From: Flavobacteriia bacterium
GTDB lineage: Bacteria > Bacteroidota > Bacteroidia > Flavobacteriales_D > Crocinitomicaceae
Direction of reading: 5' to 3'
DNA: 56,797 nucleotides
Assembly: GCA_947455255.1 (NCBI GenBank)
Contig: CANGOA010000005.1
Coordinates: forward strand, 1-56,797
In this document: piece after piece, positions 2,859 through 31,002 of the stretch
Numbering within the stretch: position 1 is the first letter of the stretch
Layout of the letters: the number at the start of each line of letters is the position of its first letter
The notes under the pieces: model-generated
Databases searched by the model: none
Seen by the model: only the letters and a program-made list of their open reading frames with translations
Told to the model about the DNA's origin: nothing
Program-made: the position numbers and the translations under genes

Positions 2859-3203
2859 ATGAAAAAATTTAAACTAGTTGCACTATTAAGTCTTTGTTTT
2901 TTGACTTTTGGATGTAAAAAAACTGAGTTAACAGGAGATTATGCAGGTTATGTAGGAGATTGGACAAGTGATTATGCAACCCTTTCATTAAAGTCAGCAG
3001 GAATAGGTACATATGACTATAGCAAAGAAGGTGTTACTAAAAATGTTAAAAATGGTCGAGTTATTATTGAGGGTAATAAATTATCTTTAAAAGTGGCATT
3101 TATTTCGACAAATTTCACGATTAATGAAGCACCAAAAGCTTCTACAGATTATCCTGGTAAAATGGAGATGATTTTAGATGGAGAAACTTTTATTAGAGAT
3201 TAA
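2859..3203 (+). CDS. Small lipoprotein of unknown function
   Basis: A 114-residue protein that starts with a lipoprotein signal peptide: MKK, a hydrophobic stretch, then LTFGC with the lipidated cysteine at about residue 19. The mature part is about 95 residues, Gly/Tyr/Thr-rich near its start, with alternating hydrophobic residues that suggest a small beta-barrel or lipocalin-like fold. It is a single-gene unit with its own -7 box, lying between terminator copies T1 and T2. I do not recognise a family. Confidence 0.75.
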   Translation: MKKFKLVALLSLCFLTFGCKKTELTGDYAGYVGDWTSDYATLSLKSAGIGTYDYSKEGVTKNVKNGRVIIEGNKLSLKVAFISTNFTINEAPKASTDYPGKMEMILDGETFIRD

Positions 3204-3252
3204 TTATTTTACTTATCCATTTAAATCTTATTATTTCGATTCAATTCTTTAA

Positions 3253-3295
3253 AACCGTCAGCTGAAAAGTTGTCGGTTTTTTTATTCTGAAAATC
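3253..3295 (+). terminator. Intrinsic terminator, repeat copy T2
   Basis: AACCGTCAGCT (3253-3263) pairs with AGTTGTCGGTT (3268-3278) around a GAAA tetraloop, with one T-T mismatch, then seven T. It is the second copy of the element at 2642 and ends the lipoprotein transcript. Confidence 0.88.
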
Positions 3296-3383
3296 AGTAT
3301 TTTAAATATTATTTTTTGATATTTGTGCAACCGAAACGATATAATTACGTTATTATATATAGTATAAATTTTTTAAACAAGTT

Positions 3384-4792: not shown

Positions 4793-5190
4793 TAAATGCA
4801 TCAACAAATTATTTGGATTTCAAAAATGAAATGACGCTTAAATTCGGCGATTTTTATGAAGAACAGACTGATATATTTTTTAAAAGGTCTGTTTTCGAAG
4901 CTAAAAAAAATCTAATGCAGAGCGCATTAATTGATGCCAAATTTTCGCTTCATCTTTCCTATTTATCAAACAATGAGTATTCAAAATTATTTATTATAGG
5001 TTTTATAAGTCAAGTTTATTGTGATTTAGGTAAGATAAGTAAAGCAAGAAAATATTGTCAACTTGGAATGAAATTATTAGATTGTGATTCTGAATACTAC
5101 CACCTAGATTTAGAATTATTTCAACGGTTAGAAGAAATGATTAATAGTGAAAGTTGGAAAGAAAATTTAGAAGATGAAGAATTTGAATAA
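4789..5190 (+). CDS. Small cytoplasmic protein, possibly TPR-like
   Basis: A 133-residue protein without signal peptide. Residues 40-115 look helical in pairs (IDAKFSLHLSYLSN, IIGFISQVYCDLGKISKARKYCQLGMKLL), which resembles a short TPR pair. It is the last gene of the nuclease-like unit, overlapping the previous stop by 4 bp (ATGA), and is followed at 5203 by terminator copy T3. Function unknown. Confidence 0.65.
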   Translation: MINASTNYLDFKNEMTLKFGDFYEEQTDIFFKRSVFEAKKNLMQSALIDAKFSLHLSYLSNNEYSKLFIIGFISQVYCDLGKISKARKYCQLGMKLLDCDSEYYHLDLELFQRLEEMINSESWKENLEDEEFE

Positions 5191-5202
5191 TATGTTTTTT
5201 CT

Positions 5203-5243
5203 ACCGTCAGCTGAAAAGTTGGCGGTTTTTTTGTTTTAAAATC
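5203..5243 (+). terminator. Intrinsic terminator, repeat copy T3
   Basis: ACCGTCAGCT (5203-5212) pairs with AGTTGGCGGT (5217-5226) around a GAAA tetraloop and is followed by seven T. The one variable stem position is T-A, T-T and T-G in copies T1 to T3. It ends the nuclease-like unit. Confidence 0.9.
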
Positions 5244-5316
5244 CTGTCACGATTTATGATTATTTTGTTTCGAGCGAATAGATTATATTTTAATTTTACC
5301 AATCTAATTTCCTGTT

Positions 5317-5793
5317 ATGAAATACAGAATGCTTACTACGGAAGAATTGACACACCTCGAAGAAGAGTTGAAGCAATTTTTGATCATTAATCATGTTTAC
5401 AAAGAGGAGTGGGAACGAATGAATCGAGACACGCCTGAAACAGCCCAAGATTTAGTTGGTTTGTTTAGTGATCAAGTATTACAAAGGGTGTATGAAAACA
5501 TTACCTATTTAGAACATAGAAGTAAAGATGCTTGTTTGGTGTTTAAACTTGGGAAGGATTCCATTGAGATGATTGGTTTACAAAAGAAAGATAATGAAAC
5601 GGATATTGTGACTTTTGAAACTCCTGAATCTATACATGAAGCTTTATCGGTTCATCCAAATCAAGTTGGATTTTTTAAACATACAAAAGCCTATACGAAA
5701 CAACGCGAAGAAGAAATACATCAAATGATAGAACAAGGATGTGTAAAATCCTCAGAAGAATTTTGGAAGTTGTTGTTGGAGGTGGTAGCTTAA
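5317..5793 (+). CDS. DUF6495-like conserved protein
   Basis: A 158-residue soluble protein beginning MKYRMLTTEEL and rich in Glu and Lys, which I recall as typical of the Bacteroidota DUF6495 family. Middle motifs include LVGLFSDQVLQRVYENITYLEHRS and a KDSIEMIGL strand. No catalytic motif is visible. A/T-rich sequence at 5284-5298 holds weak -7-like boxes (TATATTTT, TAATTTTA). The gene stands just outside the terminator-bounded accessory block. The family name is from memory, and no function is known to me. Confidence 0.7.
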   Translation: MKYRMLTTEELTHLEEELKQFLIINHVYKEEWERMNRDTPETAQDLVGLFSDQVLQRVYENITYLEHRSKDACLVFKLGKDSIEMIGLQKKDNETDIVTFETPESIHEALSVHPNQVGFFKHTKAYTKQREEEIHQMIEQGCVKSSEEFWKLLLEVVA

Positions 5794-5831
5794 AATAAAA
5801 TATTTCTTACCTTTCTAAAAAATTAAAACAC

Positions 5832-6884
5832 ATGGCTTTAGATATAAAATTATTAGCAGAAATATGTAAAACACCTGGTACCTCTGGATTTGAACAACAA
5901 GTTCGTGCCTTGGTAATGAAAGAATTGGAAGGATATGTAGACGAACTTTCTACAGACAATTTAGGGAATGTTTACGCCGTAAAAAAAGGCAAATCGGATA
6001 AACGCGTGATGATTGGTGCACACATGGATGAAATTGGGTTCATGGTGACACACATTGACGATAAAGGATTTATTCGCGTAACGACCTTAGGAGGTTTTGA
6101 TCCAAAAACATTGACTGCTCAACGTGTAATTATTCATGGAAAAAAAGACATTATTGGTGTAATGGCTTCTAAGCCAATCCACGTGATGACTCCAGACGAG
6201 CGCAATAAAGTCGCTAAATTGACCGATTATTTTATTGATACAGGTTTGACTAAAGAAGAAGTATTGGAGAACGTATCGATTGGCGATCCAATTACACGCG
6301 AGCGTGAGTTTATTGAGATGGGAAATTGTGTTAATTCTAAATCTTTGGATAACCGTTTGGCCGTTTTCATTTTGATTGAAATGTTCAAAACATTAAAAGG
6401 AAAAGAAGTTCCTTATGATATTTATGGAGTATTTACCGTACAAGAAGAAGTTGGTATTCGTGGAGCAAATGTCGCTTCGTTGAAAATAAATCCTGATTTT
6501 GGTTTTGGTTTAGATACAACGATTGCTTTTGATTTACCAGGAGCAGCAGAACACGAAATGATCACCAAATTAGGAGAAGGTACAGCGATTAAAATCATGG
6601 ATGCTTCTACGATATGTGATTACCGTATGGTGGATTACATGAAGAAAACTGCAGATAAACATAACATTAAGTGGCAACCAGAGATATTAACAGCTGGTGG
6701 AACAGATACTGCTGGGATTCAACGTATGACGCAAGGAGGTTCGATAGCAGGAGCTGTTTCTGTTCCGACAAGACATTTACATCAAGTGATTGAAATGGCT
6801 AACAAGGACGATATTCAAGCGAGTATTGAATTGTTGACGGCGTGTGTGTCGGATTTAGATACTTATAATTGGGACTTTAAATAA
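5832..6884 (+). CDS. M42 family aminopeptidase
   Basis: A cytosolic metallo-aminopeptidase of the M42 (PepA/FrvX/tetrahedral aminopeptidase) family, 350 residues as usual. The di-metal set is visible: His64 in GAHMDEIGF, bridging Asp173 in SLDNRLA, catalytic Glu205 and ligand Glu206 in VQEEVGIRG, Asp228 in GLDTT, and His317 in TRHLH. Such enzymes trim peptides from the N-terminus and often form large tetrahedral shells. The acyltransferase gene follows by 11 bp, so the two probably share a transcript. A weak -7 box (TACCTTTC) lies at 5808-5815. Confidence 0.93.
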   Translation: MALDIKLLAEICKTPGTSGFEQQVRALVMKELEGYVDELSTDNLGNVYAVKKGKSDKRVMIGAHMDEIGFMVTHIDDKGFIRVTTLGGFDPKTLTAQRVIIHGKKDIIGVMASKPIHVMTPDERNKVAKLTDYFIDTGLTKEEVLENVSIGDPITREREFIEMGNCVNSKSLDNRLAVFILIEMFKTLKGKEVPYDIYGVFTVQEEVGIRGANVASLKINPDFGFGLDTTIAFDLPGAAEHEMITKLGEGTAIKIMDASTICDYRMVDYMKKTADKHNIKWQPEILTAGGTDTAGIQRMTQGGSIAGAVSVPTRHLHQVIEMANKDDIQASIELLTACVSDLDTYNWDFK

Positions 6885-19726: not shown

Positions 19727-20434
19727 ATGAAGAAAACTGCAAGAGGAATTGTTATCCAACGCTTTTCTTATTCGGAAACAAGTCTCATCGTCCATTGTTT
19801 TACAGAAAATGAAGGACTAAAATCCTTTTTGTTCCAAGGTGCGAAGAAAAAGAAGGGTGTTGTATTATTGCCTTTATCACCGATCGAATTTTCCTATTAT
19901 CAAAAAGACGAAAGTCAACTTGCCAAAATGACCGATGCAACTTTGTATCAATCCTTTGCAACCATACCTTTTGACCCAGTAAAATCTACTGTAGTGTTTT
20001 TTCAAGTCGAAATTTTAGCAAACGTATTGCATGAAGGGGTTGTCGATAAGCATCTTTTTGATTTTTTAGTGGAAGAATTGGCTTGGTTAGATGAAAATAA
20101 TACTTTAGCAAATTATCCGATTTATTGGATGTTAGAATTGTCTCAACAATTAGGTTTTTACCCGCTGAAATCAGAAGAAAACACTCCTTATTTTGATTTA
20201 GAAAATGGAGAGTTTCTACAATTCAATCCATCAAATTTTACCTATAAATCGGGTCTAGAAGTAAATGTGTTAGGCTCCATGTTGTCACTTCCTAAAGAAG
20301 TTGTTTTGAATTTTTCTATACCAAAAGACCTACGTAAACAAGTCTTACAATTGCTATTAGTATATTTCAAGCACCATATTCCTAATTTTAATCCCACAAA
20401 TTCCTTGGAAGTGATTGAAAGTATTTGGGAATAG
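19727..20434 (+). CDS. recO: DNA repair protein RecO
   Basis: RecO helps load RecA by displacing SSB and annealing strands in the RecFOR pathway. The 235 residues begin with the OB-fold pattern (KKTARGIVIQRFSYSETSLIVHCFTENEGLKSFLFQGAKKK is read as strands 1-4) followed by an all-helical domain. The usual Cys4 zinc finger is missing, as in other Bacteroidota RecO. It starts 2 bp after porZ. The ridA-like gene's promoter lies in its last codons. Confidence 0.92.
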   Translation: MKKTARGIVIQRFSYSETSLIVHCFTENEGLKSFLFQGAKKKKGVVLLPLSPIEFSYYQKDESQLAKMTDATLYQSFATIPFDPVKSTVVFFQVEILANVLHEGVVDKHLFDFLVEELAWLDENNTLANYPIYWMLELSQQLGFYPLKSEENTPYFDLENGEFLQFNPSNFTYKSGLEVNVLGSMLSLPKEVVLNFSIPKDLRKQVLQLLLVYFKHHIPNFNPTNSLEVIESIWE

Positions 20435-20448
20435 ATTTCTTATATTTG
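20415..20448 (+). promoter_or_regulatory. ridA-like gene promoter inside the end of recO
   Basis: TTG (20415-20417), 23-nt spacer, TATATTTG (20441-20448), an exact TAnnTTTG match ending 18 bp before the ATG at 20467. This argues against an in-frame start at 20425. Confidence 0.6.
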
Positions 20449-20466
20449 CATATCAAAAATTCAATC

Positions 20467-20901
20467 ATGTCAGATAATTCTCGTATTTCTACTAGCAAAG
20501 CACCAAAACCTGTAGGTTTGTACCCTCACGCAAGACGCGTTGGTAATTTATTGTTTTTATCAGGAGTTGGACCACGTACTGCTGGTTCGGATGCTACAGA
20601 TTCTGAGGTTCCTGGATTGAAATTGGATAAAAACGGAAACTTTTTGGAGTTTGATTTTGAAGCACAATGTAGAAGTGTATTTGACAACGTTCGTGTGATT
20701 TTAGAAGAGTCAGGTTCTAGTTGGGAAAATTTAGTAGATGTTACGGTTTTCTTAGTTAATATGAAACGTGATTTCCATACCTATAACCGTTTATATGCAG
20801 AATACTTCAAGGATAATTTACCTTGTCGTACTACCTGTGAAATCAATTCATTGCCAACTCCAATCGCAATTGAATTGAAATGTATTGCAACTATTGATTA
20901 A
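20467..20901 (+). CDS. RidA/YjgF family enamine/imine deaminase
   Basis: A 144-residue protein of the RidA family, which hydrolyses reactive 2-aminoacrylate and related enamines, or in some branches aminomuconate. Family marks: LLFLSGVGPR, FEAQCRSVFDNVRVILEESGSSWENLVDVTVFLVNM and the C-terminal LPCRTTCEI with the substrate-binding arginine. It is about 15 residues longer than the shortest RidA because of an inserted loop (TAGSDATDSEVPG), a form also seen in aminomuconate deaminase-like members. The ATG at 20467 follows the promoter. The next gene starts 12 bp on. Confidence 0.9.
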   Translation: MSDNSRISTSKAPKPVGLYPHARRVGNLLFLSGVGPRTAGSDATDSEVPGLKLDKNGNFLEFDFEAQCRSVFDNVRVILEESGSSWENLVDVTVFLVNMKRDFHTYNRLYAEYFKDNLPCRTTCEINSLPTPIAIELKCIATID

Positions 20902-20913
20902 TTCTATATTTAT

Positions 20914-21501
20914 ATGTTTGGTTTTGTAATTCGCTGTATTCTTTCAGTATTTTCATTGTTTTTATTGGTTTACTCATTTGCTACAGGTCACTGGGGATGG
21001 GGGATTGTAATGATTTTTGTTTCGGCGATAATCATTTTATCGTTTTTCCGAAATCAGTACATGATTTTGGCCTTAAACCAAATGCGTGTTGGGAATCATG
21101 AAAAAGCACATGGGTATCTAAATAAAATTTCACGTCCAGATTTATTGCCTAAAAAACAACATGCCTATGTGTTGTATTTGAAAGCAATGTTAGGAACACA
21201 AGAATTAGGTTTTGCTAAAACAGAACAAATGTTGCGTCAAGCAATACAAATGGGATTGAGAACAAAACAAGACAATGCGGTTGCTCGTTTACATTTATCT
21301 GGTATTTGTGCTCAAACTGGTAGAAAGCAAGAAGCGACTACTTTGTTGAATGAAGCGAAGAAAATGGATGAGAATGGAATTTTAAAAGAGCAAATCACTA
21401 TGATGAAAGGTCAACTTTCTTCAGCTGTTCCTTCTAAAAATCAAATGCGTATGGCTCAGATGACCAAAGGTCGTCAGAAAATGCCACGTGCTAAGAAATA
21501 A
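20914..21501 (+). CDS. Membrane-anchored TPR-like protein
   Basis: A 195-residue protein with two N-terminal membrane segments (about 2-22 and 27-45), then a cytoplasmic helical part with TPR-like pairs (MRVGNHEKAHGYLNKI, GICAQTGRKQEATTLLNEAKK) and a very basic tail. It sits between the ridA-like gene and the methyltransferase, whose start directly follows its stop. Function unknown. Confidence 0.8.
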   Translation: MFGFVIRCILSVFSLFLLVYSFATGHWGWGIVMIFVSAIIILSFFRNQYMILALNQMRVGNHEKAHGYLNKISRPDLLPKKQHAYVLYLKAMLGTQELGFAKTEQMLRQAIQMGLRTKQDNAVARLHLSGICAQTGRKQEATTLLNEAKKMDENGILKEQITMMKGQLSSAVPSKNQMRMAQMTKGRQKMPRAKK

Positions 21502-22362
21502 GTGGTGTCGATAGCTTCCAAACTTTTCACCCAACCTTGGGAAGAATATGAACTACTAGATGCCGGTGGAGGAAAGAAATTAGAACGTTTTGGTTCGGTA
21601 ACGACCATCCGACCAGAATTACAAGCCTATTTTAAGTCCGATACTACCTTTGTTGAATGGGAAAAAAAAGCGGATTGTGCGTTTATTGAGAAATCAACGA
21701 CCAAAGGTTTATGGAAACGTAGAAATACGCTTCAAAATGACAGTTGGAACATTGTATACAAAGACTTGCAGTTCAAATTAGAACTGACTTCCTTCAAACA
21801 TGTAGGAATTTTTCCTGAACAAGTGGTCAATTGGGATTTTCTATCCTCCAATTTAGACGCATCTAAGACCTTTTTAAATCTTTTTGCATATACTGGCATC
21901 GCTTCAGTAGTTGCTCGAAATACAGGCGCATCTGTGACACACGTTGATTCTGTCAAACAATTGATCCATTGGGCGAAGGAAAACATGGAACTCAACCACC
22001 TTTCTGACATTCGTTGGATACATGAAGATGCTTTAACCTTTGCACAAAAAGAGGTTAAGCGCGGAAAAAAATACGATGTAATCTTAATGGATCCTCCTGC
22101 ATTCGGATTTGGAGCAAAAGGTGAAAAATGGATACTCGAACAAAAATTACCAGCCTTATTGGAGACTGCTTATCAGTTACTTTCAGACAAAGGAACCTTG
22201 ATTTTAAACACCTATTCTCCTAAAATTACCTTACAAGATGTTGTTCGTGAAACAACTAAGTTTTTTGACAAAATCAACATCGAAGCCAATGAATTGTGGG
22301 GAAAAACAAAACTTGGAAAAGAATTGTTTTATGGGAATTTGGTGAGGGTGAAGAAGGGGTGA
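21502..22362 (+). CDS. RlmI-like class I SAM-dependent methyltransferase
   Basis: A 286-residue Rossmann methyltransferase resembling the catalytic part of RlmI-type 23S rRNA (cytosine-C5) enzymes. Motif I is TFLNLFAYTGIASVVA, motif II VTHVDS, the adenine-pocket HEDA and the DPPAFGFG loop in place of NPPY. The N-terminal PUA domain of RlmI is absent; a short beta-rich domain is there instead. The start appears to be GTG (21502, or 21505) immediately after the previous stop, as no upstream ATG exists. Substrate (rRNA) is inferred from family. Confidence 0.85.
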   Translation: MVSIASKLFTQPWEEYELLDAGGGKKLERFGSVTTIRPELQAYFKSDTTFVEWEKKADCAFIEKSTTKGLWKRRNTLQNDSWNIVYKDLQFKLELTSFKHVGIFPEQVVNWDFLSSNLDASKTFLNLFAYTGIASVVARNTGASVTHVDSVKQLIHWAKENMELNHLSDIRWIHEDALTFAQKEVKRGKKYDVILMDPPAFGFGAKGEKWILEQKLPALLETAYQLLSDKGTLILNTYSPKITLQDVVRETTKFFDKINIEANELWGKTKLGKELFYGNLVRVKKG

Positions 22363-22368
22363 TCACCC
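22357..22368. other. 12-bp perfect palindrome holding two stop codons
   Basis: GGGTGATCACCC joins two convergent genes with no gap: the plus-strand TGA at 22360-22362 abuts the minus-strand TGA at 22365-22363. No T-run follows, so terminator function is doubtful. Confidence 0.7.
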
Positions 22369-22824
22369 AATAAACAAAATCGCTGAACACGAAGAAAATC
22401 CTATTAAGAGCACCAAAGCAAAACTCAGTAAATATTTTTTTGCTTGTTCATTCTCCTTTTGAATGTAAAGCAAAATACTTATAAATAAGTTCGCTAGTAA
22501 GTGTATTACAAATAAGAAGCTAAACGTGCCAAAATCAATCATTCTACCTCCTAATAAAGCAAGTAACAATACTAAAATAATTAAATTAACGAGCAGGTTA
22601 AGTTGATTGTTAGAGATCATATCTTTTATGTTAAGTGAACTTTTAGTTGTTGTTCCTAATCGAAGGAGGATAAAAGCAATTGTAAAATACGTAAAATAAT
22701 GTGCAATTTCATATTCTCGAATAGATTCAAACAACCAACTAAGAACTAAACATCCAATGATTAATAATGTATTGTTTTTGGGTTGAGTGATAAATCGAAA
22801 AAACTTTATTATGTTAGTTTTCAT
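22363..22824 (-). CDS. Small multi-pass membrane protein, paralogue of the next
   Basis: A 153-residue protein with about five hydrophobic segments and few charges. Its last 75 residues align by eye with the neighbour at 22830-23090: NLIILVLLLALL against NLIILLLLSAIF, and NLFISILLYIQKENEQAKKYLL against NLLISLYFYLSKNKELAKIFLL, both ending in a GFSxCxA segment. It is the last gene of a seven-gene minus-strand operon, 5 bp after its paralogue. No family recognised. Confidence 0.75.
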   Translation of the reverse strand: MKTNIIKFFRFITQPKNNTLLIIGCLVLSWLFESIREYEIAHYFTYFTIAFILLRLGTTTKSSLNIKDMISNNQLNLLVNLIILVLLLALLGGRMIDFGTFSFLFVIHLLANLFISILLYIQKENEQAKKYLLSFALVLLIGFSSCSAILFIG

Positions 22825-22829
22825 GTGTA

Positions 22830-23090
22830 TTATCTTAAGTATTCAACAGCGAAACAGGTTGAAAAACCAACTAATAATATAATACCATTACTAAGAAGAA
22901 ATATTTTTGCTAATTCTTTATTTTTACTTAAATAAAAATAGAGTGATATCAGTAAATTTATAATAACACTAATTACTATAGTACCCGCATAATTAATAAT
23001 AAAATCAAATGCATTTTGTTCAGCTATTTTAAAAATAGCTGATAAAAGAAGTAATATAATTAAGTTTACTACTATTATTTTGTTTTTCAT
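22830..23090 (-). CDS. Small membrane protein, shorter paralogue
   Basis: An 86-residue protein with three hydrophobic segments, ending with the conserved helix LLVGFSTCFAVEYL. It matches the C-terminal half of the 153-residue neighbour, so the two arose by tandem duplication. It starts 1 bp after the radical SAM stop, so it is probably made together with it. Function unknown; a role as partner or lipid-handling subunit of the radical SAM protein is speculation. Confidence 0.75.
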   Translation of the reverse strand: MKNKIIVVNLIILLLLSAIFKIAEQNAFDFIINYAGTIVISVIINLLISLYFYLSKNKELAKIFLLSNGIILLVGFSTCFAVEYLR

Positions 23091-23091
23091 A

Positions 23092-24486
23092 TTAATTGAT
23101 TAAAGATCGATGTTTCTCTAATTTTTCCTCCATCCCTTTACGATAAAACAAATTCATTGTTTCAAAAGGAATAATCTTCCCATCTGTATTTACTATATGA
23201 ACACATGATTTCTTAATCGCTCGTACGTCAAAATCGTATGCATCCATAAAATTCATAATTATCACACGAAATAAATTGTCGTACGATAATTTTGGAGCGA
23301 TAATCGATGGCAAACAACAAAGTAATTGATTGAATGTTTTAGATACAAAATCGGTGGATTTACCAGTACTGAACATCTCCATGACATGTTTGTGTAAGGA
23401 TTCGTCTTGTTCATAAACAATCGTATTTTTTGAATTGTTTAAAAGAATCTCTGGGTCAATCAAATGTGTCAACGCCTTGACTTCATTTTTATATTTTAAG
23501 GCATAAGCCATCACTAAAGCGTCTGGATTACAGGGAACAGGAATTAAATCGGTTGGCTGAAAAACAGTTGTTTGCTCTAATATTTTTTGACGTACTTCAG
23601 TATTTGTCATGCGATTTATAGCTGGGTCAAAATTTTCTAAACGTCCACTAACTGAAGTTGGTTGGAAAGTAACCCCTCTGACACATTTTTGTTTTAAAGC
23701 AAAATCAATGATTTGACCGATTTCATCATCGTTTAATCCCTTTTCTAACGTGACAACCAAGGTAGTTGAAAGGTTATATTTATTAAGGTATTCCAAGGCT
23801 TGATTTCGGTATTTTGTTAAATCTCCACCTCGTAATTTCTTGAGAACCTCTGGTTTAAATGAATCCCATTGCAAATAGATTTCAAAATCAGGCATATAGC
23901 TAGCTAATCGTTTCACAAATGCTTCATCATTTGCTAATTGAACACCATTCGTATTTACCATCAAATGTTTGATTGGCTTTGATTTAGCTAAATCTAGAAT
24001 TTCAAAGAATTGTGGATGAATTGTCGGTTCTCCACCACTGATTTGAACGACATCAGGCTCACCCTCACTTGCTACGACAGCGTCTAACATAAATTCAATT
24101 TCTTCCAAACTACGATGATTTCCAAAAGTAGGAGAAGAACTTGCATAACACGTTGGACAAGCTAAATTACAACGATCTGTAACTTCGATTAATGTCAAGC
24201 AGGAGTGCTGTTCGTGATCGGGACAAATTCCACAATCCAATGGACAACCAAAATGTGTTTCTGTGTGCGGTTTACGTGGATATTCAGATGCTTTGTTATA
24301 GTTTCTTATTTGCTTGTAATATTCAATGTCTGTAGCGATAAGTACCTTCTGGTAACCGTGTTCTTTACAAGTTTTGGAAATGTAAACATTACCATTCTCA
24401 AAAATAATTTTTGCACTTATTTGTCGATGACACTCATTACACAAACTTATCGTGTGATCATAGTAAATATAGTTTCGTTCACTCAT
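23092..24486 (-). CDS. Radical SAM protein resembling archaeal tetraether lipid synthase (Tes)
   Basis: A 464-residue radical SAM enzyme whose cysteine layout matches the Tes/GDGT-MAS group (MJ0619 type). It has an N-terminal zinc- or rubredoxin-like knuckle (Cys16, Cys19, Cys40, near His43), an auxiliary-cluster motif CPLDCGICPDHEQHSC (Cys81, 85, 88, 96), the SAM cluster CNLACPTC (Cys106, 110, 113), GGEPT (151-155), NTNGVQLA, FQPTSVSGR, PVPC (Cys319), a CC pair (390-391) and Cys428 near the end. In archaea Tes joins two lipid chains tail to tail across the membrane. Here it overlaps the Lgt-like gene by 4 bp. The bacterial substrate is unknown; family placement is from motifs alone. Confidence 0.75.
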   Translation of the reverse strand: MSERNYIYYDHTISLCNECHRQISAKIIFENGNVYISKTCKEHGYQKVLIATDIEYYKQIRNYNKASEYPRKPHTETHFGCPLDCGICPDHEQHSCLTLIEVTDRCNLACPTCYASSSPTFGNHRSLEEIEFMLDAVVASEGEPDVVQISGGEPTIHPQFFEILDLAKSKPIKHLMVNTNGVQLANDEAFVKRLASYMPDFEIYLQWDSFKPEVLKKLRGGDLTKYRNQALEYLNKYNLSTTLVVTLEKGLNDDEIGQIIDFALKQKCVRGVTFQPTSVSGRLENFDPAINRMTNTEVRQKILEQTTVFQPTDLIPVPCNPDALVMAYALKYKNEVKALTHLIDPEILLNNSKNTIVYEQDESLHKHVMEMFSTGKSTDFVSKTFNQLLCCLPSIIAPKLSYDNLFRVIIMNFMDAYDFDVRAIKKSCVHIVNTDGKIIPFETMNLFYRKGMEEKLEKHRSLIN

Positions 24487-25292
24487 GAGAATAAATATTT
24501 AGGTGATATTAAAGTCTTAATAATGGTTTTAGAATAATAAATTAGCCCCAATAAACAAGCAACTTGAATAGTTCCAATACCCCACATAAAAGTATAACCT
24601 GGTTTAATAAATTCAATTACAAAGCGAAAAGACAAATATAAAATCATAAATAATTTAAAGCGCTTTCCTTCCTTGAGAGGTTTTAGTTTTTCAATAGAAT
24701 GTAAACTAACAAATAGTAGTATCAAATAGCCAATTTCATACAAACTTGTTGGGTGTCTTAAGATTCCATCTCCTAAATTCATGCCGGTGAAAAAAGACGT
24801 TGGTTCCCCGTACGTAGGTTCGTAAATTCCACTTGTAAAACAACCAATTCTTCCAATACCTATTGCTAGAATTAAGGGATAAGTAAATAAATCTCCAGAA
24901 GATGATTTTTCTCCAATGAATTTTTTGGTTATTTCTACAAAAAGTAATCCACCCAATAAAGCACCAATAATGGTTTTACTTTTGAAAATATCAAGGATTA
25001 AATGTTGAGAATGTATCAAACCGATTGGATTTTCTAAAGCGCCTATAATACGAGAGAAGAAAAAAGCTCCAAAGGTAGCAGCGATTAAGATGGATAAACG
25101 ATTAGAATCATTGATAGTATCTGTTTGTTTTTTTCTTAAATAGGAGTAATAACGATATCCTATGATAAACCCTAAAGTCTCAAACACTAAATGACCACTA
25201 AGTGTAAGTCCACTAACATGTATGTCTAAAGGAAATTTCAATGGTTTTATTATTTTTAAGTTATAGTCTATTAACTTCCGACACTTCGTCAC
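24483..25292 (-). CDS. Lgt-like diacylglyceryl transferase family membrane protein
   Basis: A 269-residue polytopic protein with the Lgt signature pieces GRIGCF (for GRIGNF) near residue 150, RHPTSLYE near 185 and SFRFVIEFIKPG near 225, with about seven membrane segments. Against classical Lgt, the Asn of GRIGN is Cys, the usual Glu of the following loop is displaced, and the GGL segment lacks the catalytic-region His. So it is probably a paralogue with another lipid substrate, not the cell's main Lgt. The likely start is GTG at 25292, inside heptanucleotide array F; no ATG is available upstream of the first helix. A TTG about 19 codons later is the alternative. It overlaps the radical SAM start (ATGA). 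Confidence 0.78.
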   Translation of the reverse strand: MTKCRKLIDYNLKIIKPLKFPLDIHVSGLTLSGHLVFETLGFIIGYRYYSYLRKKQTDTINDSNRLSILIAATFGAFFFSRIIGALENPIGLIHSQHLILDIFKSKTIIGALLGGLLFVEITKKFIGEKSSSGDLFTYPLILAIGIGRIGCFTSGIYEPTYGEPTSFFTGMNLGDGILRHPTSLYEIGYLILLFVSLHSIEKLKPLKEGKRFKLFMILYLSFRFVIEFIKPGYTFMWGIGTIQVACLLGLIYYSKTIIKTLISPKYLFS

Positions 25293-25315
25293 TCGTCACT
25301 CGTCACTCTTATCTC
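25288..25315 (-). repeat. Heptanucleotide array F
   Basis: On the minus strand: gagataa, then three gagtgac units, then a decayed gaagtgt. The first unit holds the TAA stop of the membrane protein gene (25309-25311); the last exact unit overlaps the probable GTG start of the Lgt-like gene. Confidence 0.9.
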
Positions 25316-25890
25316 GAGTAGTACCGATAACCCGAACTTCCCAATACCATTCCCCATACATACACACCTTCCGGAAATACTACCCAATTTGAAAGTCCTA
25401 ACAACAAAGCTATAACACCAACAATTAGTAAAAACACTTTCACATGTTCATGCCACAAAGCATCAATGGGTGTAGTTTCAAAAGCTTTAGGGATTAGAAA
25501 CGAAATTTTATATTGCATATAACCTCCAGCAATTAAAAGTGGAAGCAATATAATCCCCTGCGGAAGTCCCATTTCTTTCATCATTAAAAAACGTATAATT
25601 TCTTCAGAAATAGAGACTTTAGGACTAATATTTAGAATCAAAAAATAGACCAAATAAAACGTTAGAAAATACCCTAAAAGAATGAAGAATATATGCTTCC
25701 AAGGGTAGTTGGATGTTTGATGATGATTATGTATCGCTTTTGTTTTAACAAAAGTAAATACCGTCGAAACTCCCACATCTAATATGTAAAAGAACAAAAT
25801 GAAAAACATGTTCCAACCCCAAAAATAATACCCAATAAGTGGAATAGCTAAATCCCCAATAAGTTGTGTTATTTTAGTTTGTTGATTCAT
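25309..25890 (-). CDS. Multi-pass membrane protein, DUF6498-like
   Basis: A 193-residue protein with about five or six membrane helices. An N-terminal LIGYYFWGWNMFFILFFYILD stretch resembles what I recall of DUF6498 proteins, and a histidine pair sits in a cytoplasmic loop (KAIHNHHQ). It overlaps the TPR lipoprotein stop by 4 bp (ATGA) and its own stop lies in array F. It belongs to the radical SAM/Lgt-like operon. Function unknown. Confidence 0.75.
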   Translation of the reverse strand: MNQQTKITQLIGDLAIPLIGYYFWGWNMFFILFFYILDVGVSTVFTFVKTKAIHNHHQTSNYPWKHIFFILLGYFLTFYLVYFLILNISPKVSISEEIIRFLMMKEMGLPQGIILLPLLIAGGYMQYKISFLIPKAFETTPIDALWHEHVKVFLLIVGVIALLLGLSNWVVFPEGVYVWGMVLGSSGYRYYSR

Positions 25891-26894
25891 TTTAATTTAT
25901 TTGCTTCTATACGAGAAATTTCATATTTCGGATTATGTTTTAACGCTGTTACAAAAGCATTTAATGCTTCAGGTTTTCTTCCCAATGAAGCATAACATAA
26001 CCCTAAATTATGCCAACCTTTGACAAATTTTGGCTGTAAATCAATAGCACTTGTATAATAAAAAATAGCACTATCTACTTGATTTTGTTCGAATTGCTTA
26101 ATATATCCTTGATTAAATAATGCTAGATAGAATTTTGGATCCACTTGTAATAACTCACGATATGCTTTTAATGATTCATCAAACTTATGTTGTTGTTGCA
26201 AGCTATAAGCAACTCCATACCATGCATCTGTTGATTTTGGACGCAAGGTGACTGCAGTGCGGAAATACTCAACTGCCAAAGGATCATTATCCTCGGAATA
26301 TAAATATCCTAAATATAAATACCCTTCAAAAAATTTGGTATCTTGTTGAACAGCTGTCTCATAGGATGATTTAGCCAATTTACGATTTCCTAAACTTAGG
26401 TAATTTGTTCCTTTTAAAATATATGCATCTCTGTATTTTTTATCGATTCGCAAGGCTTCATTGATGAATTGGAACGATTTTTCATAATCACCTTGTTGGG
26501 TATAAGAAGATGCTAAACTTACATAAATCTTTTTATTACCAGGTTGGCGTTTGATGAGGTATAAGAAATGTTGTTTTGCATTTTCGATGTCCACTTGTGT
26601 GCGTTCTGCTCGGTTGTTCAAAGCATTTGCATACAAAAAACGTGCTTCTAAGTTGTTAGAATCTAGGCGATATGCTTTTGCTCCATCGGTTAACGCATCA
26701 TAAAACCGATATGTTTCTAAGTATTTATTTCCTCGTTTTATTAATAAATCAACATTATTAGGGTCTAATTTTAAAAGACTATCTAAGTTTTCTTTTTTAG
26801 CCTGTGTTGTGTTTGATTTGTTTGATTTTTCTCCACAACTAAACAAAATTAAGTTGCTTAAAATCAATAGGGTGAAGAGTGTAAATTTATACAT
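25887..26894 (-). CDS. TPR lipoprotein
   Basis: A 335-residue lipoprotein: signal ending LILFSC (Cys20), a Lys/Ser/Asn-rich tether, then about seven TPR units (for example YEKSFQFINEALRIDKKYRDAY, DPLAVEYFRTAVTLRPKSTDAW, PEALNAFVTALKHNPKY). It would hang in the periplasm and bind protein partners. It starts 10 bp after the MBL gene and overlaps the next gene by 4 bp. Confidence 0.87.
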   Translation of the reverse strand: MYKFTLFTLLILSNLILFSCGEKSNKSNTTQAKKENLDSLLKLDPNNVDLLIKRGNKYLETYRFYDALTDGAKAYRLDSNNLEARFLYANALNNRAERTQVDIENAKQHFLYLIKRQPGNKKIYVSLASSYTQQGDYEKSFQFINEALRIDKKYRDAYILKGTNYLSLGNRKLAKSSYETAVQQDTKFFEGYLYLGYLYSEDNDPLAVEYFRTAVTLRPKSTDAWYGVAYSLQQQHKFDESLKAYRELLQVDPKFYLALFNQGYIKQFEQNQVDSAIFYYTSAIDLQPKFVKGWHNLGLCYASLGRKPEALNAFVTALKHNPKYEISRIEANKLK

Positions 26895-26903
26895 AGTTAA
26901 AAC

Positions 26904-27551
26904 TTAAAATTGTAATATGTAGTTAGATATTTTTTCTTTTCCAATAGTTGTGTTAGGACCATGACCACAAAAAATAACTGTTTCTTCTGGCAATGTAAAA
27001 AAACGTTCTTTGATTGTTTTCTTTAACACCTCGATATCTCCACCTGGCAAATCGACACGACCAAAGCTTCCTTGGAAAAGTATGTCACCAGATATTACCA
27101 AAGAGTCTTTTTGAGAATAAAAAGCTACATGTCCAGGTGCATGTCCAGGTCCAAAAATCACTTTTAATTCAATTTCACCAAATGTTAATACTTGATTATC
27201 TTCTAAAAAATTAGTTGGTTGAGGAGACGGTTCAAATCCTTCAATACCATACACTTGAGCTGAACGTTCAGCTGCAGCTAATACTGGTAAATCAAGTTTA
27301 TGCATGAAATAATCTACAGGATAGGTACGTAGTACATAAGCATTTCCAAGTACGTGATCTATATGACAATGTGTACTTAACAAAGCTTTTACTTCCAAGT
27401 TGTTTTCAGAAATATAGTTAGAAAGTTCTTGTTTTTCAGACGAAGTTAAACATCCTGGATCAATTATGACAGCAGATTTATCAGGTGCTGAAACTACATA
27501 TGAGTTTTCCTGAAATGGGTTAAATGTAAATTTTTGAATGTGTAGTGCCAT
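26904..27551 (-). CDS. Metallo-beta-lactamase fold hydrolase, glyoxalase II-like
   Basis: A 215-residue cytosolic MBL protein with STHCHIDH (His61, His63, Asp65, His66), GHAPGHVAF, SGDILFQGSFGR and CGHGPNT, the pattern of glyoxalase II-like/YcbL hydrolases of thioesters. The ATG at 27551 is preferred; an in-frame TTG at 27566 lies within the promoter's -7 box. First gene of the seven-gene minus-strand operon that ends at 22363. Whether it serves the lipid genes is unknown. Confidence 0.9.
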   Translation of the reverse strand: MALHIQKFTFNPFQENSYVVSAPDKSAVIIDPGCLTSSEKQELSNYISENNLEVKALLSTHCHIDHVLGNAYVLRTYPVDYFMHKLDLPVLAAAERSAQVYGIEGFEPSPQPTNFLEDNQVLTFGEIELKVIFGPGHAPGHVAFYSQKDSLVISGDILFQGSFGRVDLPGGDIEVLKKTIKERFFTLPEETVIFCGHGPNTTIGKEKISNYILQF

Positions 27552-27563
27552 CTTTTTTTTTGA

Positions 27564-27571
27564 CAAAAATA
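27564..27571 (-). promoter_or_regulatory. -7 box of the MBL to membrane-protein operon
   Basis: On the minus strand TATTTTTG, an exact TAnnTTTG match, 12 bp before the ATG at 27551. Only promoter seen for the seven-gene operon. Confidence 0.55.
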
Positions 27572-27624
27572 CATAATTCGTGCTTTCTTTTTTTTATTAC
27601 TTCCCTTTGATTACATAGATTTTA

Positions 27625-27632
27625 TACATTTG
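27625..27632 (+). promoter_or_regulatory. -7 box of the 27654 lipoprotein gene
   Basis: TACATTTG fits TAnnTTTG, 21 bp before the ATG; TTG at 27607-27609 is 15 nt upstream. Divergent from the operon promoter at 27564. Confidence 0.55.
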
Positions 27633-27653
27633 TAATAACTCAAAATAATTCCT

Positions 27654-28187
27654 ATGAAATTTTTAGTTTATTTATCCGTATTTTTTCTTGCAATGAGTTG
27701 TGCTATTCGCCAGCCTTTTACCGCAGAAATAAAAAAAGAATATGATTTGAACACTCCTGATGCGATGAAAAAAGTTCAGTTTTACACATCTTCAGCAATT
27801 GTTTTAGAAAGAGTTGTGACAAATGGAGGAAAGGCTAAAACGGATGATGGGACATTAGTTACCTCAAAAAGTAAAGAGGAAAATAGAATTATTATACCAT
27901 CTTTGACAAAATGTATTTTTGAAAATTTTGATGCAAATGGGGATATTAATGTAAGATTTGAAACAGGAGCAGGTAGAATTATCAAATTTGCAATCAGAGA
28001 TAATCAACCAAATGGTCGTTTTTATTTTGTTGCTAAATGGGAATACGACAAAGGTTCTGAAGTAACTTATGGAAATGAAATATATTATGCAACTTCCAAC
28101 TCAGCGAATGCTTGTTTGTTAGTATCGATTAAAAAATTACAAAAAACTAGAAGAAGAGATCGTGTAGTTAAAGGAATGAAAGTTTAA
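27654..28187 (+). CDS. Lipoprotein of unknown function
   Basis: A 177-residue lipoprotein (signal ending LAMSC, Cys16). The mature part has a beta-rich central region (ITVRFETGAGRIIKFAI-like strands) and a basic tail KKLQKTRRRDRVVKGMKV. It has its own promoter. Array G separates it from hemJ. I recognise no family. Confidence 0.75.
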   Translation: MKFLVYLSVFFLAMSCAIRQPFTAEIKKEYDLNTPDAMKKVQFYTSSAIVLERVVTNGGKAKTDDGTLVTSKSKEENRIIIPSLTKCIFENFDANGDINVRFETGAGRIIKFAIRDNQPNGRFYFVAKWEYDKGSEVTYGNEIYYATSNSANACLLVSIKKLQKTRRRDRVVKGMKV

Positions 28188-28204
28188 TACATAATTCTTC
28201 GCTC

Positions 28205-28225
28205 GTCACTCGTCACTCGTCACTC
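28205..28225 (+). repeat. Heptanucleotide array G
   Basis: Three exact gtcactc units ending 4 bp before the hemJ ATG, preceded by a partial gctc. The array takes the place where a ribosome-binding region would be. Confidence 0.88.
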
Positions 28226-28229
28226 AATT

Positions 28230-28769
28230 ATGGATTATAACGTAATTAAAGCACTGCATATCATTTTCGTAGTGAGCTGGTTCGCTGGTTTATTCTACAT
28301 GGTTCGTTTATTTATTTATCATACAGAAACGAAAGAAAAATCAGATGTTGAAGCGAAAATTTTAGGCGACCAATATAAAATTATGGAGAAAAAATTGTGG
28401 TTCATTATCACTACTCCTGCAATGGTTTTGACGGTTGTATTTGGTTTATGGATGTTATTTAAAAATGATTTTTTGTTGTCACAACCGTGGATGCATATTA
28501 AATTATCATTTGTTGTCCTTTTGCTAATTTATCACGTCATCTGTCAACGTATCATGAATCAATTGAAACGAGATGAGTTTCATTGGACTTCAACAAAATT
28601 GAGACTTTGGAATGAGTTAGCAACATTGTTTTTAGTTGCAATTGTTTTTTTAGTAGAATTACAAACAACTCTTGATTGGGTGAAAGGGACAGTCGGATTT
28701 TTCTTAGTGGGTATTCTACTAATGATTGCAGTTAAAATTTATAAACATTTCCGTCAAAAAAATAAATAA
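28230..28769 (+). CDS. hemJ: Protoporphyrinogen oxidase HemJ-like membrane protein
   Basis: A 179-residue four-helix membrane protein of the HemJ/CopD group, which oxidises protoporphyrinogen IX to protoporphyrin IX in heme synthesis. Family marks: N-terminal IKALHIIFVVSWFAGLFYMVRLFIYH with His10, KLWFIITTPAM and the PWMHIKLSFV segment with a second conserved His, followed by LYHVI-like LIYHVICQ. The ATG is 4 bp after a gtcactc array. Enoyl-CoA hydratase follows by 6 bp. Confidence 0.87.
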   Translation: MDYNVIKALHIIFVVSWFAGLFYMVRLFIYHTETKEKSDVEAKILGDQYKIMEKKLWFIITTPAMVLTVVFGLWMLFKNDFLLSQPWMHIKLSFVVLLLIYHVICQRIMNQLKRDEFHWTSTKLRLWNELATLFLVAIVFLVELQTTLDWVKGTVGFFLVGILLMIAVKIYKHFRQKNK

Positions 28770-28775
28770 AGCATT

Positions 28776-29555
28776 ATGGAATATACAAATATCCTCGTAA
28801 GTCAAAACGAATCCATTCAATGGGTTACAATTAATCGTCCTGCGCAATTAAATGCATTGAATAAACAAACCATTCAAGAATTACACAACGCAATTGCTGC
28901 AGCAAACAAAGATCATACAATTCGTGTGATTGCATTAATTGGTGCTGGTGAAAAAGCATTCGTAGCTGGTGCTGATATTAAAGAATTCGCTGATTTTTCT
29001 CCCGAGGAAGGAAAGAATTTAGCAAAAGAAGGTCAAGAAACATTATTTGATTTTATTGAAAATAGTAAAAAACCTGTTATTGCTGCTGTAAATGGATTTG
29101 CATTAGGTGGAGGATTAGAATTGGCTATGGCTTCTCATATCAGAGTTGCATCTGAAAATGCGAAAATGGGCTTGCCTGAAGTAAGTTTAGGGGTGATTCC
29201 TGGTTATGGCGGAACTCAACGCTTAGCGCAATTAGTAGGAAAAGGGAAAGCGAACGAAATGATTTTTACTGCAGGAATGATTTCTGCTACTGAGGCTCAA
29301 GCTTGGGGTTTAGTGAACACAGTTTGTGCTCAAGAAGAATTAGTTGCGACGGTCGAAAAAATAGCATTGAAAATTGCTCAAAACTCACCTTTAGCTATTG
29401 CTAGTGCAATTCGTGCTGTAAATGCAAGTACTAAAGCCAATTTAAACGGGTTTTCTACCGAAATTGAAGAATTTGGAAATTGCTTTGGTACCAAAGATTT
29501 CGTTGAAGGAACAACTGCATTTTTAGAAAAAAGAAAACCAACTTTTACTATCTAG
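28776..29555 (+). CDS. Enoyl-CoA hydratase/isomerase (crotonase family)
   Basis: A 259-residue crotonase that hydrates trans-2-enoyl-CoA in fatty-acid or amino-acid breakdown. The oxyanion-hole segments are AGADIKEF (64-71) and ALGGGLELA (109-117), and both catalytic glutamates of hydratases are present (Glu115, and Glu135 in GLPEVSLGVIPGYGGTQRL). The C-terminal AWGLVN is typical. It lies 6 bp after hemJ and 1 bp before the flippase. Confidence 0.92.
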   Translation: MEYTNILVSQNESIQWVTINRPAQLNALNKQTIQELHNAIAAANKDHTIRVIALIGAGEKAFVAGADIKEFADFSPEEGKNLAKEGQETLFDFIENSKKPVIAAVNGFALGGGLELAMASHIRVASENAKMGLPEVSLGVIPGYGGTQRLAQLVGKGKANEMIFTAGMISATEAQAWGLVNTVCAQEELVATVEKIALKIAQNSPLAIASAIRAVNASTKANLNGFSTEIEEFGNCFGTKDFVEGTTAFLEKRKPTFTI

Positions 29556-29556
29556 T

Positions 29557-31002
29557 TTGAATCCGCTAAAGAAATTACTCTCTCAGTCTGCCATTTATGG
29601 GTTGTCCAGCATTGTTGGTCGACTCCTTAATTACCTATTGGTTCCGCTCTACACAGCTGCGTTTGCCAATCCATCAGATTATGGAGTGGTTTCTGAATTA
29701 TATGCCTATGTAGCTTTTTTAGTGGTGCTACTAACTTTTGGTATGGAAACTTCCTTCTTTCGATTTATACAGTTAAAAGAGGATAAGGAAGAAGTGTTCC
29801 AAAATAGTTTTCTGACCGTGATTGGAATTAATGTGCTCTTCTTCTTAGTCAGTTTATTTTTTAATCAAAACATCGCCAATTTTTTATTGTATCCTGATCA
29901 TAATGAGTATGTTGTTTTGCTTATAGCTGTGGTTTGTATTGATGCAATTTCTAGTTTACCATTGGCTAAATTACGTGCTGAGGAACAGGCGAAAAAATTT
30001 GTAGGGATACAATTAGCTTCCATTTTTGTAAACATTGGACTAAACTTGGTCTTAATGTTACTCATCTTCGATAAATCAAGACCAGAACAAGGTGTACTTT
30101 ATATTTTGCTTGCTAATTTGGTTTCTTCACTTGTAAAACCATTATTGTTATACAAACATTTTTTGCATTTACGCTTCAAATTTAATCCCGAATTAGCCAA
30201 AGAAATGGTAGTATATGCCCTACCTTTGGTGTTTGGTGGTTTCGCAGGAATTATAAATGAAACGTTAGATCGTGCATTATTGAAACGTTTGCTATTTGAA
30301 TCAGGTCAAACTTTGGAGTATGCAAAAGCGCAAGTAGGAATTTATAGTGCGGTATACAAATTAGCAATGCTCGTTTCGATTCTGTTACAAGCATATCGCT
30401 ATGCTGCTGAGCCTTTCTTTTTCTCACAAATGAAAAATCAAGACAAAGACAAAATTTACAGCAAAGTGATGAATTATTTTGTAGCTACTGTTTGTTTGGT
30501 GTTTTTAGTGGTAACGTTAAATATCGATATTTTCAAACATTTCATTCGTAACGAAAGTTACTGGGTAGGACTTGGAGTGGTGCCTATTTTGTTACTCGCA
30601 AATGTGTTTCTTGGTATATATTACAACCAAAGTATCTGGTACAAACTTTCTGGTCAAACAAAATTTGGAGCCTATATTGCTATCGGTGGTGCAACATTAA
30701 CGGTTGTTTTGAATGTTATTTTTATACCAATTTACGGTTATTGGGCTTGTGCTTGGGCGACGTTAATAGTCTACGCTGCACAAATGATTGCCTCTTATTA
30801 TTTAGGCCAAAAATATTATCCAATCAACTACAATTTACGTAAGTTTTTCTTTTACATGGGATTGAGTTTAATCTTTTTCTTTGTTTGCTATTTAATGGAT
30901 ATTGAAACTACTTGGTTAAAATTCATAGTACATAATCTATTTATTCTTGCTTTCGTTGGTTTGGCATGGAAATTAGAAAAGCCTTTAGCTAAAAGAGCAT
31001 AG
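29557..31002 (+). CDS. Polysaccharide/oligosaccharide flippase (Wzx-like)
   Basis: A 481-residue protein with about 12-14 membrane segments and the MVF/polysaccharide-export start LKKLLSQSAIYGLSSIVGRLLNYLLVPLYT, as read in pieces. It should flip lipid-linked oligosaccharides for O-antigen, capsule or anionic LPS. The start appears to be TTG at 29557, 1 bp after the enoyl-CoA hydratase stop; the first in-frame ATG would remove the first membrane segments. No glycosyltransferases flank it, so the substrate is unknown. Confidence 0.87.
   Translation: MNPLKKLLSQSAIYGLSSIVGRLLNYLLVPLYTAAFANPSDYGVVSELYAYVAFLVVLLTFGMETSFFRFIQLKEDKEEVFQNSFLTVIGINVLFFLVSLFFNQNIANFLLYPDHNEYVVLLIAVVCIDAISSLPLAKLRAEEQAKKFVGIQLASIFVNIGLNLVLMLLIFDKSRPEQGVLYILLANLVSSLVKPLLLYKHFLHLRFKFNPELAKEMVVYALPLVFGGFAGIINETLDRALLKRLLFESGQTLEYAKAQVGIYSAVYKLAMLVSILLQAYRYAAEPFFFSQMKNQDKDKIYSKVMNYFVATVCLVFLVVTLNIDIFKHFIRNESYWVGLGVVPILLLANVFLGIYYNQSIWYKLSGQTKFGAYIAIGGATLTVVLNVIFIPIYGYWACAWATLIVYAAQMIASYYLGQKYYPINYNLRKFFFYMGLSLIFFFVCYLMDIETTWLKFIVHNLFILAFVGLAWKLEKPLAKRA

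Follow-up and report, generated by a model that had tools for sequence, protein, structure and literature searches.

Tetraether synthase (Tes, or GDGT-MAS; MJ0619, structure 7TOL) is a radical S-adenosylmethionine (SAM) enzyme that is reported to act on free lipids and to bind two of them, even bacterial phospholipids, taking a hydrogen atom from the tail end and forming a carbon-carbon bond via a carbon-sulfur intermediate on its cluster (PMC9433317). The 456 bacterial Tes homologues counted in one survey have been proposed for the synthesis of branched glycerol dialkyl glycerol tetraethers (brGDGTs; PMC8941075), homologues are also reported from bacteria not known to make biphytanyl chains (PMC9433317), and the hits in bacterial metagenome-assembled genomes are described as mostly Chloroflexota and Planctomycetota, with their function unconfirmed according to that paper (PMC11868695). 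For a second lipid enzyme, Lgt of Escherichia coli (5AZB/5AZC), the active site is taken as periplasm-facing (PMC4728403), R143 and R239 are thought to position the lipid, and H103 and N146 are described as essential (PMC4728403, PMC13251419). Here, relatives of both enzymes are encoded next to small membrane proteins on the minus strand of contig CANGOA010000005.1 from a Flavobacteriia bacterium of the Crocinitomicaceae; the window analysed is this whole contig of 56,797 nucleotides, from an assembly that is 77% complete in 212 contigs. The recurrent module consists of the Lgt-like gene, the radical SAM gene and usually at least one small membrane protein gene, and it is proposed, at a little short of an even chance, that a Cys of the small membrane protein is lipidated by the Lgt-like enzyme, with lipid tails altered by the Tes-like radical SAM enzyme. 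While both enzyme superfamilies have been described before, how they are assembled into this module and what its third component is are undescribed in the literature searched: searches judged by title and abstract opening, with subscription papers and preprints outside their scope, gave no description of a pairing of Lgt-like and Tes-like proteins. The four module genes of the window are:

24483..25241, minus strand: Lgt-like membrane protein, 252 aa from TTG 25241 (PF01790, AlphaFold model, probable start from sister locus L002)
23092..24486, minus strand: Tes/TrsS-related radical SAM protein, 464 aa (7TOL match, NCBIfam scores, model)
22830..23090, minus strand: small membrane protein 1, candidate substrate, 86 aa, Cys79 codon 22854-22856 (small-protein profile)
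22363..22824, minus strand: small membrane protein 2, second copy with a longer N-terminus, 153 aa, Cys146 codon 22387-22389 (small-protein profile)

The two enzymes and their known relatives

The radical SAM protein aligned with 7TOL along most of its sequence (E=2e-62 by phmmer; E=2.7e-79 by profile), with SkfB as the next solved-structure match (9e-8). Its AlphaFold model (mean predicted local distance difference test score (pLDDT) 74.7, predicted TM-score 0.81) is poor around residues 64-91 and 345-395, and in a Foldseek search its query-normalised TM-score (TMq) was 0.75 with 7TOL and 0.74 with 7TOM, followed by MoaA at 0.42; the peptide-modifying radical SAM enzymes SkfB and SuiB rank below Tes in the same list. 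An earlier interpretation of this DNA from its letters (the sequence-only reading) had placed the protein with Tes, and the profile and structure comparisons bear this out, an unrelated family not being the best match. The best NCBIfam model was that of the radical SAM (seleno)protein TrsS (NF045646), at 321 bits over residues 11-451 of 464 against a curated cut-off of 490, and the Tes model scored 287.5 bits against a cut-off of 450. Because both scores lie below the curated cut-offs, the protein is related to Tes and to TrsS, and its membership of either family is unproven.

The translation holds the motifs quoted in the sequence-only reading, namely CPLDCGICPDHEQHSC, CNLACPTC, CC at 390/391 and Cys428. 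The rubredoxin-like site C16-x2-C19-x20-C40-x2-H43, present in 93-94 of 95 radical SAM proteins, has spacing identical to that of the Tes site, whose ligands are reported as C9/C12/C33/H36 (PMC9433317), and two C-x3-C-x2-C sites are also common to both enzymes: an N-terminal auxiliary site (C81-x3-C85-x2-C88; 93/95, missing in two Actinomycetota rows) and the radical SAM site (C106-x3-C110-x2-C113; Cys in 95/95). Met411 aligns with the labile Tes Met439 in 89/95 proteins, the chain offset of 20 having been inferred from the rubredoxin Cys residues, and the Tes M439A variant is reported as still robustly active (PMC9433317). Late Cys residues are conserved as C319 (95/95), C390 and C391 (90/95) and C428 (94/95). 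The window protein differs from Tes in its score under the Tes cut-off, in coming from Bacteroidota and adjoining an Lgt-like gene, and apparently also in this C-terminal Cys set. It differs from TrsS in that two TrsS-type plasmid loci, of Mycolicibacterium and of a haloarchaeon, carry an adjacent methyltransferase gene and no annotated Lgt. A tree of 28 radical SAM rows has long branches and many open forks, with rows carrying the triad on several deep branches. The radical SAM gene of genome G212 was considered as a selenoprotein gene after a TGA was counted within its profile match; the open reading frame (ORF) is open for 450 aa, and the candidate was dropped.

The Lgt-like protein scored 80.6 bits with PF01790, exceeding the gathering score of 24.9, and 29.2 bits with the NCBIfam lgt model TIGR00544, below its cut-off of 118.9. 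Its AlphaFold model (pLDDT 92.3) had E. coli Lgt, 5AZB, as the sole PDB match at E<=0.001 (E=3.6e-7, TMq 0.60), and a separate canonical Lgt is encoded elsewhere in the same genome (216.8 bits). Numbered on the 269-aa mechanical ORF, R148 (E. coli R143), R223 (R239) and Y185-E186 (E202) are present in 87/87 Lgt-like proteins and Y219 (Y235) in 86/87, and equivalents of G142 and G145 are also kept; unlike E. coli Lgt, the window protein lacks H103 and has Cys for N146. The sequence-only description of an Lgt relative without some of the catalytic residues was thus accurate. Since the R143 and R239 equivalents are kept and those of H103 and N146 are not, lipid handling by the Lgt-like protein is likely and classical transfer possible. 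In the cited work H103 varies among true Lgts and the change of N146 to Cys is found in distant Lgts; for MSMEG_5408, the second Lgt homologue of Mycolicibacterium smegmatis, the changes Y26H and N146C are given and Lgt activity is presumed to be low (PMC13251419). This homologue, which shares the N-to-Cys change with the window protein, is a lead only.

Recurrence of the module and its small membrane proteins

Loci were collected by a scan that found 541 relatives, of which the best 80 were kept (Bacteroidota where the organism is named), a sample that leans to close relatives. The resulting 84 loci (L002-L005 and L031-L110) include one sister genome twice, as L002 and L031 are the same record; some are shortened by contig ends, and L002-L005 have flanks of only 1.5 kb. 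By tblastn the radical SAM gene was found in all 84 and the Lgt-like gene in 77. An ORF-based count, from which L032 was left out of 85 because it has no full radical SAM ORF, likewise placed a same-strand Lgt-like ORF upstream of the radical SAM gene in 77/84, three of these ORFs being contig-end fragments; it lies -221 to +143 bases from the radical SAM start in 71 loci and 0.25-3.9 kb upstream in six. In the stretches compared, no Lgt-like ORF was present at L051, L053 (where the gene is 310 bases from the contig end), L071, L073, L076, L084 and L085.

In a survey of 247 Bacteroidota genomes, the window's own included, the radical SAM gene (E<=1e-60) occurred in 20 and the Lgt-like gene (E<=1e-30) in 21. 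All 20 radical SAM genomes had the Lgt-like gene, compared with one of the 227 others (G075), with a Fisher p of 1.6e-28 that is overstated because the genomes are related, and in 19 of these 20 genomes the two genes share a strand and are no more than 1.2 kb apart. The neighbourhood conservation that the sequence-only reading had asked about is therefore wide (77/84 loci; 20/20 radical SAM genomes). The module is patchy, a high-scoring radical SAM gene being present in five of 59 relatives' genomes (the window's own among them). A small Cys protein accompanies the enzymes in 20/20 radical SAM genomes, in 12 by profile and in 8 by eye; the profile matched 14 of the 247 genomes, and the two without radical SAM, G071 and G187, belong to the genus of G092. 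A complete trio is carried on the 1.07-Mb plasmid pPP1 of Persicobacter psychrovividus (L116).

Small membrane protein 1 of the window (C-terminus ...LLVGFSTCFAVEYLR) matched the small-protein profile at E=3.5e-18 at the locus and 3.6e-18 in a whole-genome search, and small membrane protein 2 (...LLIGFSSCSAILFIG) at 4.3e-14 and 1.2e-12, respectively; no Pfam or NCBIfam family exceeded its cut-off among 12 scanned (best E 0.0057). A motif filter applied downstream of the radical SAM gene in 81 loci counted one copy in 52 (that of L036 being a spurious ORF), two in 17, three to five in 7 and none in 5, so that 24/81 loci are multi-copy (2-5). The profile, which was built from the same loci with a seed pre-filtered for Cys and with L002/L031 as one record, gave matches in 82/84 loci and recovered four of the five motif-filter zeros; it missed L051 as well as L080, where the contig ends after another 118 bases. 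At L035 and L036 the small protein is upstream of the Lgt-like gene.

Conservation of the Cys was assessed on a set collected regardless of Cys, the nearest ORF of 45-175 aa starting -60 to +100 bases from the radical SAM stop in 81 loci, which became 79 on dropping the duplicate L031 and L067, whose ORF belongs to the tail end of a disrupted radical SAM frame. Cys was the most conserved column (76/79), followed by a Gly (64). The aligned column was used because a Cys anywhere among the final 24 residues discriminates poorly (78/81 downstream ORFs vs 284/499 mechanical hydrophobic ORFs). Only 2/115 profile copies at E<1e-3 lack the Cys, each beside a Cys-bearing companion, and the Cys is kept in 113/115 copies in cassettes vs 2/5 copies away from the enzyme genes (p 0.0003, five being a small number); the five are one copy in G071 and two in G187, both genomes without the enzymes, a distal copy in G194 and one in G092.

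The Cys is preceded by a K/R-rich stretch about 17-25 residues earlier and a hydrophobic helix, often stands in G-[FL]-[SG]-x-C, and is followed by a tail of 3-22 residues. Across 111 copies the loop before the last helix has a mean charge of +1.6 (positive in 77%) and the tail +0.1; as the loop is basic, the positive-inside rule predicts the Cys to be outside. As in a bacterial lipoprotein, a hydrophobic helix that begins after a basic stretch and would lead out of the cytoplasm has a Cys close to its end, but the helix of the small protein is the last of several and only 3-22 residues follow the Cys. A canonical lipoprotein reading was rejected, with the Cys near the C-terminus and a strict lipobox ([LVI][ASTVI][GAS]C) at 2/111 and a loose one at 21/111 Cys sites.

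Of the three parts of the module, the small protein diverges most. Over 69 loci the mean distance was 0.27 for the radical SAM protein, 0.48 for the Lgt-like protein and 0.76 for the small protein (last 60 residues), and the three distance matrices correlate (r 0.73, 0.49 and 0.58; 0/2000 permutations as high), for which shared descent could suffice. Between window and sister genome, identity is 97.4% for the radical SAM protein, 95.2% for the Lgt-like protein, 89.5% for small protein 2 and 45.2% for small protein 1, the last with 26% in the first half and 65% in the last 40 residues; non-orthologous replacement of small protein 1 between the two is possible. In Lewinella cohaerens (L101; genes at 234-1091 and 5001-6392, with 3.9 kb between the Lgt-like and radical SAM genes), the radical SAM, Lgt-like and small proteins are 85/71/62% identical to Flavobacteriaceae versions, compared with 69-73% for the radical SAM protein and 48-50% for the Lgt-like protein against four other Lewinellaceae/Saprospiraceae rows, where the small protein gave one weak match (E 0.19). 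Because this pattern breaks shared descent, the three parts seem, from these identities, to have moved together into Lewinella cohaerens by horizontal transfer.

In the eight radical SAM genomes that the profile did not match, a short hydrophobic ORF with a near-C-terminal Cys stands beside the enzyme pair: between the two enzyme genes at L118, L119 and L133, after the radical SAM gene at L120, L122 and L124, and after the Lgt-like gene at L121 and L123. These by-eye assignments came from a Cys-filtered listing and are weaker than profile matches. L121 and L123, both Bacteroidota loci, combine TrsS-like enzymes (368 and 318 bits) with an Lgt-like gene. At L123 (3785-4378), a gene between the TrsS-like radical SAM and Lgt-like genes matches protein-S-isoprenylcysteine O-methyltransferase at 81 bits (cut-off 160), which may be read as a faint hint of lipidated-Cys chemistry; a similarly placed gene at L121 (3883-4497) resembles this methyltransferase by eye only. 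Beyond Bacteroidota, a similar trio was seen on two Actinomycetota replicons among plasmid-collection records, one from Mycobacterium branderi and one from Nonomuraea gerenzanensis: Lgt-like and radical SAM genes are joined there by 1-2 small proteins ending ...SGGLCTGLNPADYAG, ...TVGVCTGLNPAMYTGA or ...SAGICTGINPSLYG, assigned by eye and beyond the reach of the profile. On an M. avium plasmid, the matches to the two enzymes share a strand and are separated by about 1.1 kb.

Neighbouring genes and extent of the unit

Three further minus-strand ORFs lie upstream of the Lgt-like gene:

26904-27566, minus strand: metallo-beta-lactamase (MBL) ORF, mechanical
25887-26894, minus strand: tetratricopeptide repeat (TPR) lipoprotein ORF, mechanical
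25309-25890, minus strand: DUF6498-like membrane protein ORF, mechanical

The sequence-only reading had described all seven genes as one operon with overlaps or short gaps and a single promoter at its head. The seven ORFs are in place, and as mechanical ORFs their junctions are indeed two 4-bp overlaps and gaps of 1, 5, 9 and 16 bp. The mechanical Lgt-like ORF (24483-25292) begins at GTG 25292 and has 269 aa; judged by the 95%-identical sister protein of L002, the true start is probably TTG 25241. This leaves a 67-bp gap to the upstream gene, within which there is a heptanucleotide repeat, and a single seven-gene transcript is therefore doubtful. A scan of 20000-30000 for sigma-70-type promoters gave 42 sites vs 43.4 expected in shuffles, so that the proposed head promoter has no support among sites of this type; the scan covered this type only, and a promoter of another type may be present at the operon head. 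The repeat, (CTCGTCA)n with about 3.4 copies, occurs at intergenic 25286-25308 and 28202-28225, with 8 exact 15-mer matches genome-wide and 0 to a reversed control.

Among the 84 loci, tblastn found the MBL, TPR and DUF6498-like proteins near the radical SAM gene only in L002/L031, the sister genome. The seven-gene operon was consequently rejected as the functional unit, and by their distribution the three genes look like local neighbours. When ORFs of at least 90 aa were clustered over the loci, no further recurrent partner appeared among the clusters in at least 8 loci: besides the three module parts, these clusters comprised frames nested in the module genes and regarded as antisense or shifted ones, a cluster in 12 loci that we take to be LeuRS, and one unidentified cluster in 19 loci at varied positions. 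The TPR lipoprotein and the small membrane proteins had together been cast as partners of the enzymes; the TPR lipoprotein looks local, and the small proteins, which do recur and have a nearly invariant late Cys, look like substrates rather than helpers.

A proposed lipidation mechanism and its alternatives

In the proposed mechanism, the small membrane protein would be the substrate, its last helix starting at a loop that is usually basic and presumably cytoplasmic, reaching the outer side of the membrane, and bearing towards its end a Gly/Ser-containing stretch and the conserved Cys, after which comes a short tail. The Tes-like radical SAM enzyme, presumably cytoplasmic, would carry out radical chemistry on lipid alkyl tails, most likely before transfer, by activating an unactivated C-H and forming a C-C (or C-S) bond. 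The Lgt-like enzyme, with a periplasmic active site by analogy with E. coli, would then add a glycerolipid group to the Cys, and the product would be a lipid-modified membrane protein whose anchor is an altered or chain-coupled lipid. In a bolder and unlikely form of the proposal, the Tes-like enzyme would couple the tails of two lipids into a chain-coupled or membrane-spanning glycerolipid, with one head group exposed outside for the Lgt-like enzyme, which would move it to the Cys as a membrane-spanning lipid anchor.

Several observations weigh against Cys lipidation by this module. The position of H103 has no His in 87/87 Lgt-like proteins (V53, M15, L10, I5, A2, T2), although the alignment to E. 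coli Lgt is weak there (no His within 3 columns), and the N146 equivalent is Cys in 87/87; because both equivalents are absent, diacylglyceryl transfer is not assured. The C319, C390, C391 and C428 set seems to depart from that of Tes. Only 77% of copies have a net positive loop ahead of the last helix, the lipobox counts are low, and, since a late Cys also turns up in 284/499 mechanical hydrophobic ORFs, each by-eye small protein is weak alone. A lipid intermediate would be needed, as the radical SAM enzyme should be cytoplasmic and the Cys is predicted outside. The parts also occur separately: G092 has its three module genes on three contigs; L130 (G075) has an Lgt-like gene at 3153-3998, with no radical SAM gene at E<=1e-60 and no small-protein profile match; L051 has a radical SAM gene at 5001-6407 with no Lgt-like gene or small Cys protein in the 11 kb compared; and orphan small proteins are found in genomes without radical SAM at L129 (G187; 2252-2876) and L128 (G071; 3143-3553), the Cys being absent from both G187 copies and present in that of G071. 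Fast divergence is, moreover, usual for small membrane proteins.

A somewhat unlikely alternative is that the enzymes make a free unusual lipid, such as a chain-coupled or membrane-spanning glycerolipid, and that the small protein assists them as an accessory subunit, by presenting lipids or by keeping the enzymes at the membrane, its Cys serving structure or assembly. This would accord with the use of free lipids by Tes, including its binding of two lipids and even of bacterial phospholipids (PMC9433317), and with the brGDGT synthesis proposed for bacterial homologues (PMC8941075). One would expect the conservation of a subunit to be roughly that of its enzymes, yet the small protein is the least conserved part (0.76), it is present in 2-5 copies in 24/81 loci, and mainly the Cys and its helix are conserved. 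In another alternative, the radical SAM enzyme would modify the small protein itself before membrane insertion, for example by crosslinking the late Cys through a thioether or C-C bond, in the manner of a ribosomally synthesized and post-translationally modified peptide, with the Lgt-like enzyme acting later or elsewhere. In its favour are the small size and divergence of the protein, its often multiple copies, its conserved Cys and the adjacent radical SAM gene. The peptide-modifying enzymes SkfB and SuiB do appear in the Foldseek list, but below Tes; the nearest fold and sequence are those of a lipid enzyme, three of whose four metal sites are matched, the membrane-embedded end of a hydrophobic helix would be a poor substrate for a soluble enzyme, and the Lgt-like partner is left unexplained, which makes such peptide modification quite improbable.

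A TrsS-like function unrelated to lipid tails, with the Lgt-like protein now a binding or transport protein, would be in keeping with the higher TrsS score (321 vs 287.5 for Tes), with the loss of the H103 and N146 equivalents, and with the Mycolicibacterium and haloarchaeon relatives of TrsS type that adjoin a methyltransferase gene and no annotated Lgt. The equivalents of R143, R239, Y235 and E202 in 86-87 of 87 Lgt-like proteins, however, argue for a working active site, and this function is considered very improbable. The lipidation of the small-protein Cys thus continues to be put forward tentatively, resting on the co-inheritance of the genes, the Tes and Lgt folds, most of the metal ligands, and the conserved Cys and its position, with the topology predicted from charge and the Cys lipidation, the kind of lipid and the sequence of the reactions presumed.

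Bacterial Tes homologues have been proposed as the makers of branched tetraethers, which serve as climate proxies, and a bacterial Tes homologue need not imply tetraether lipids. The module links one branch of these homologues to a second lipid-enzyme relative and a candidate protein substrate, and since this branch is present in many cultured Bacteroidota, the question is testable in standard laboratory strains. Lipidation of the Cys, if it occurs, would be a kind of protein lipidation distinct from the N-terminal lipoprotein pathway.

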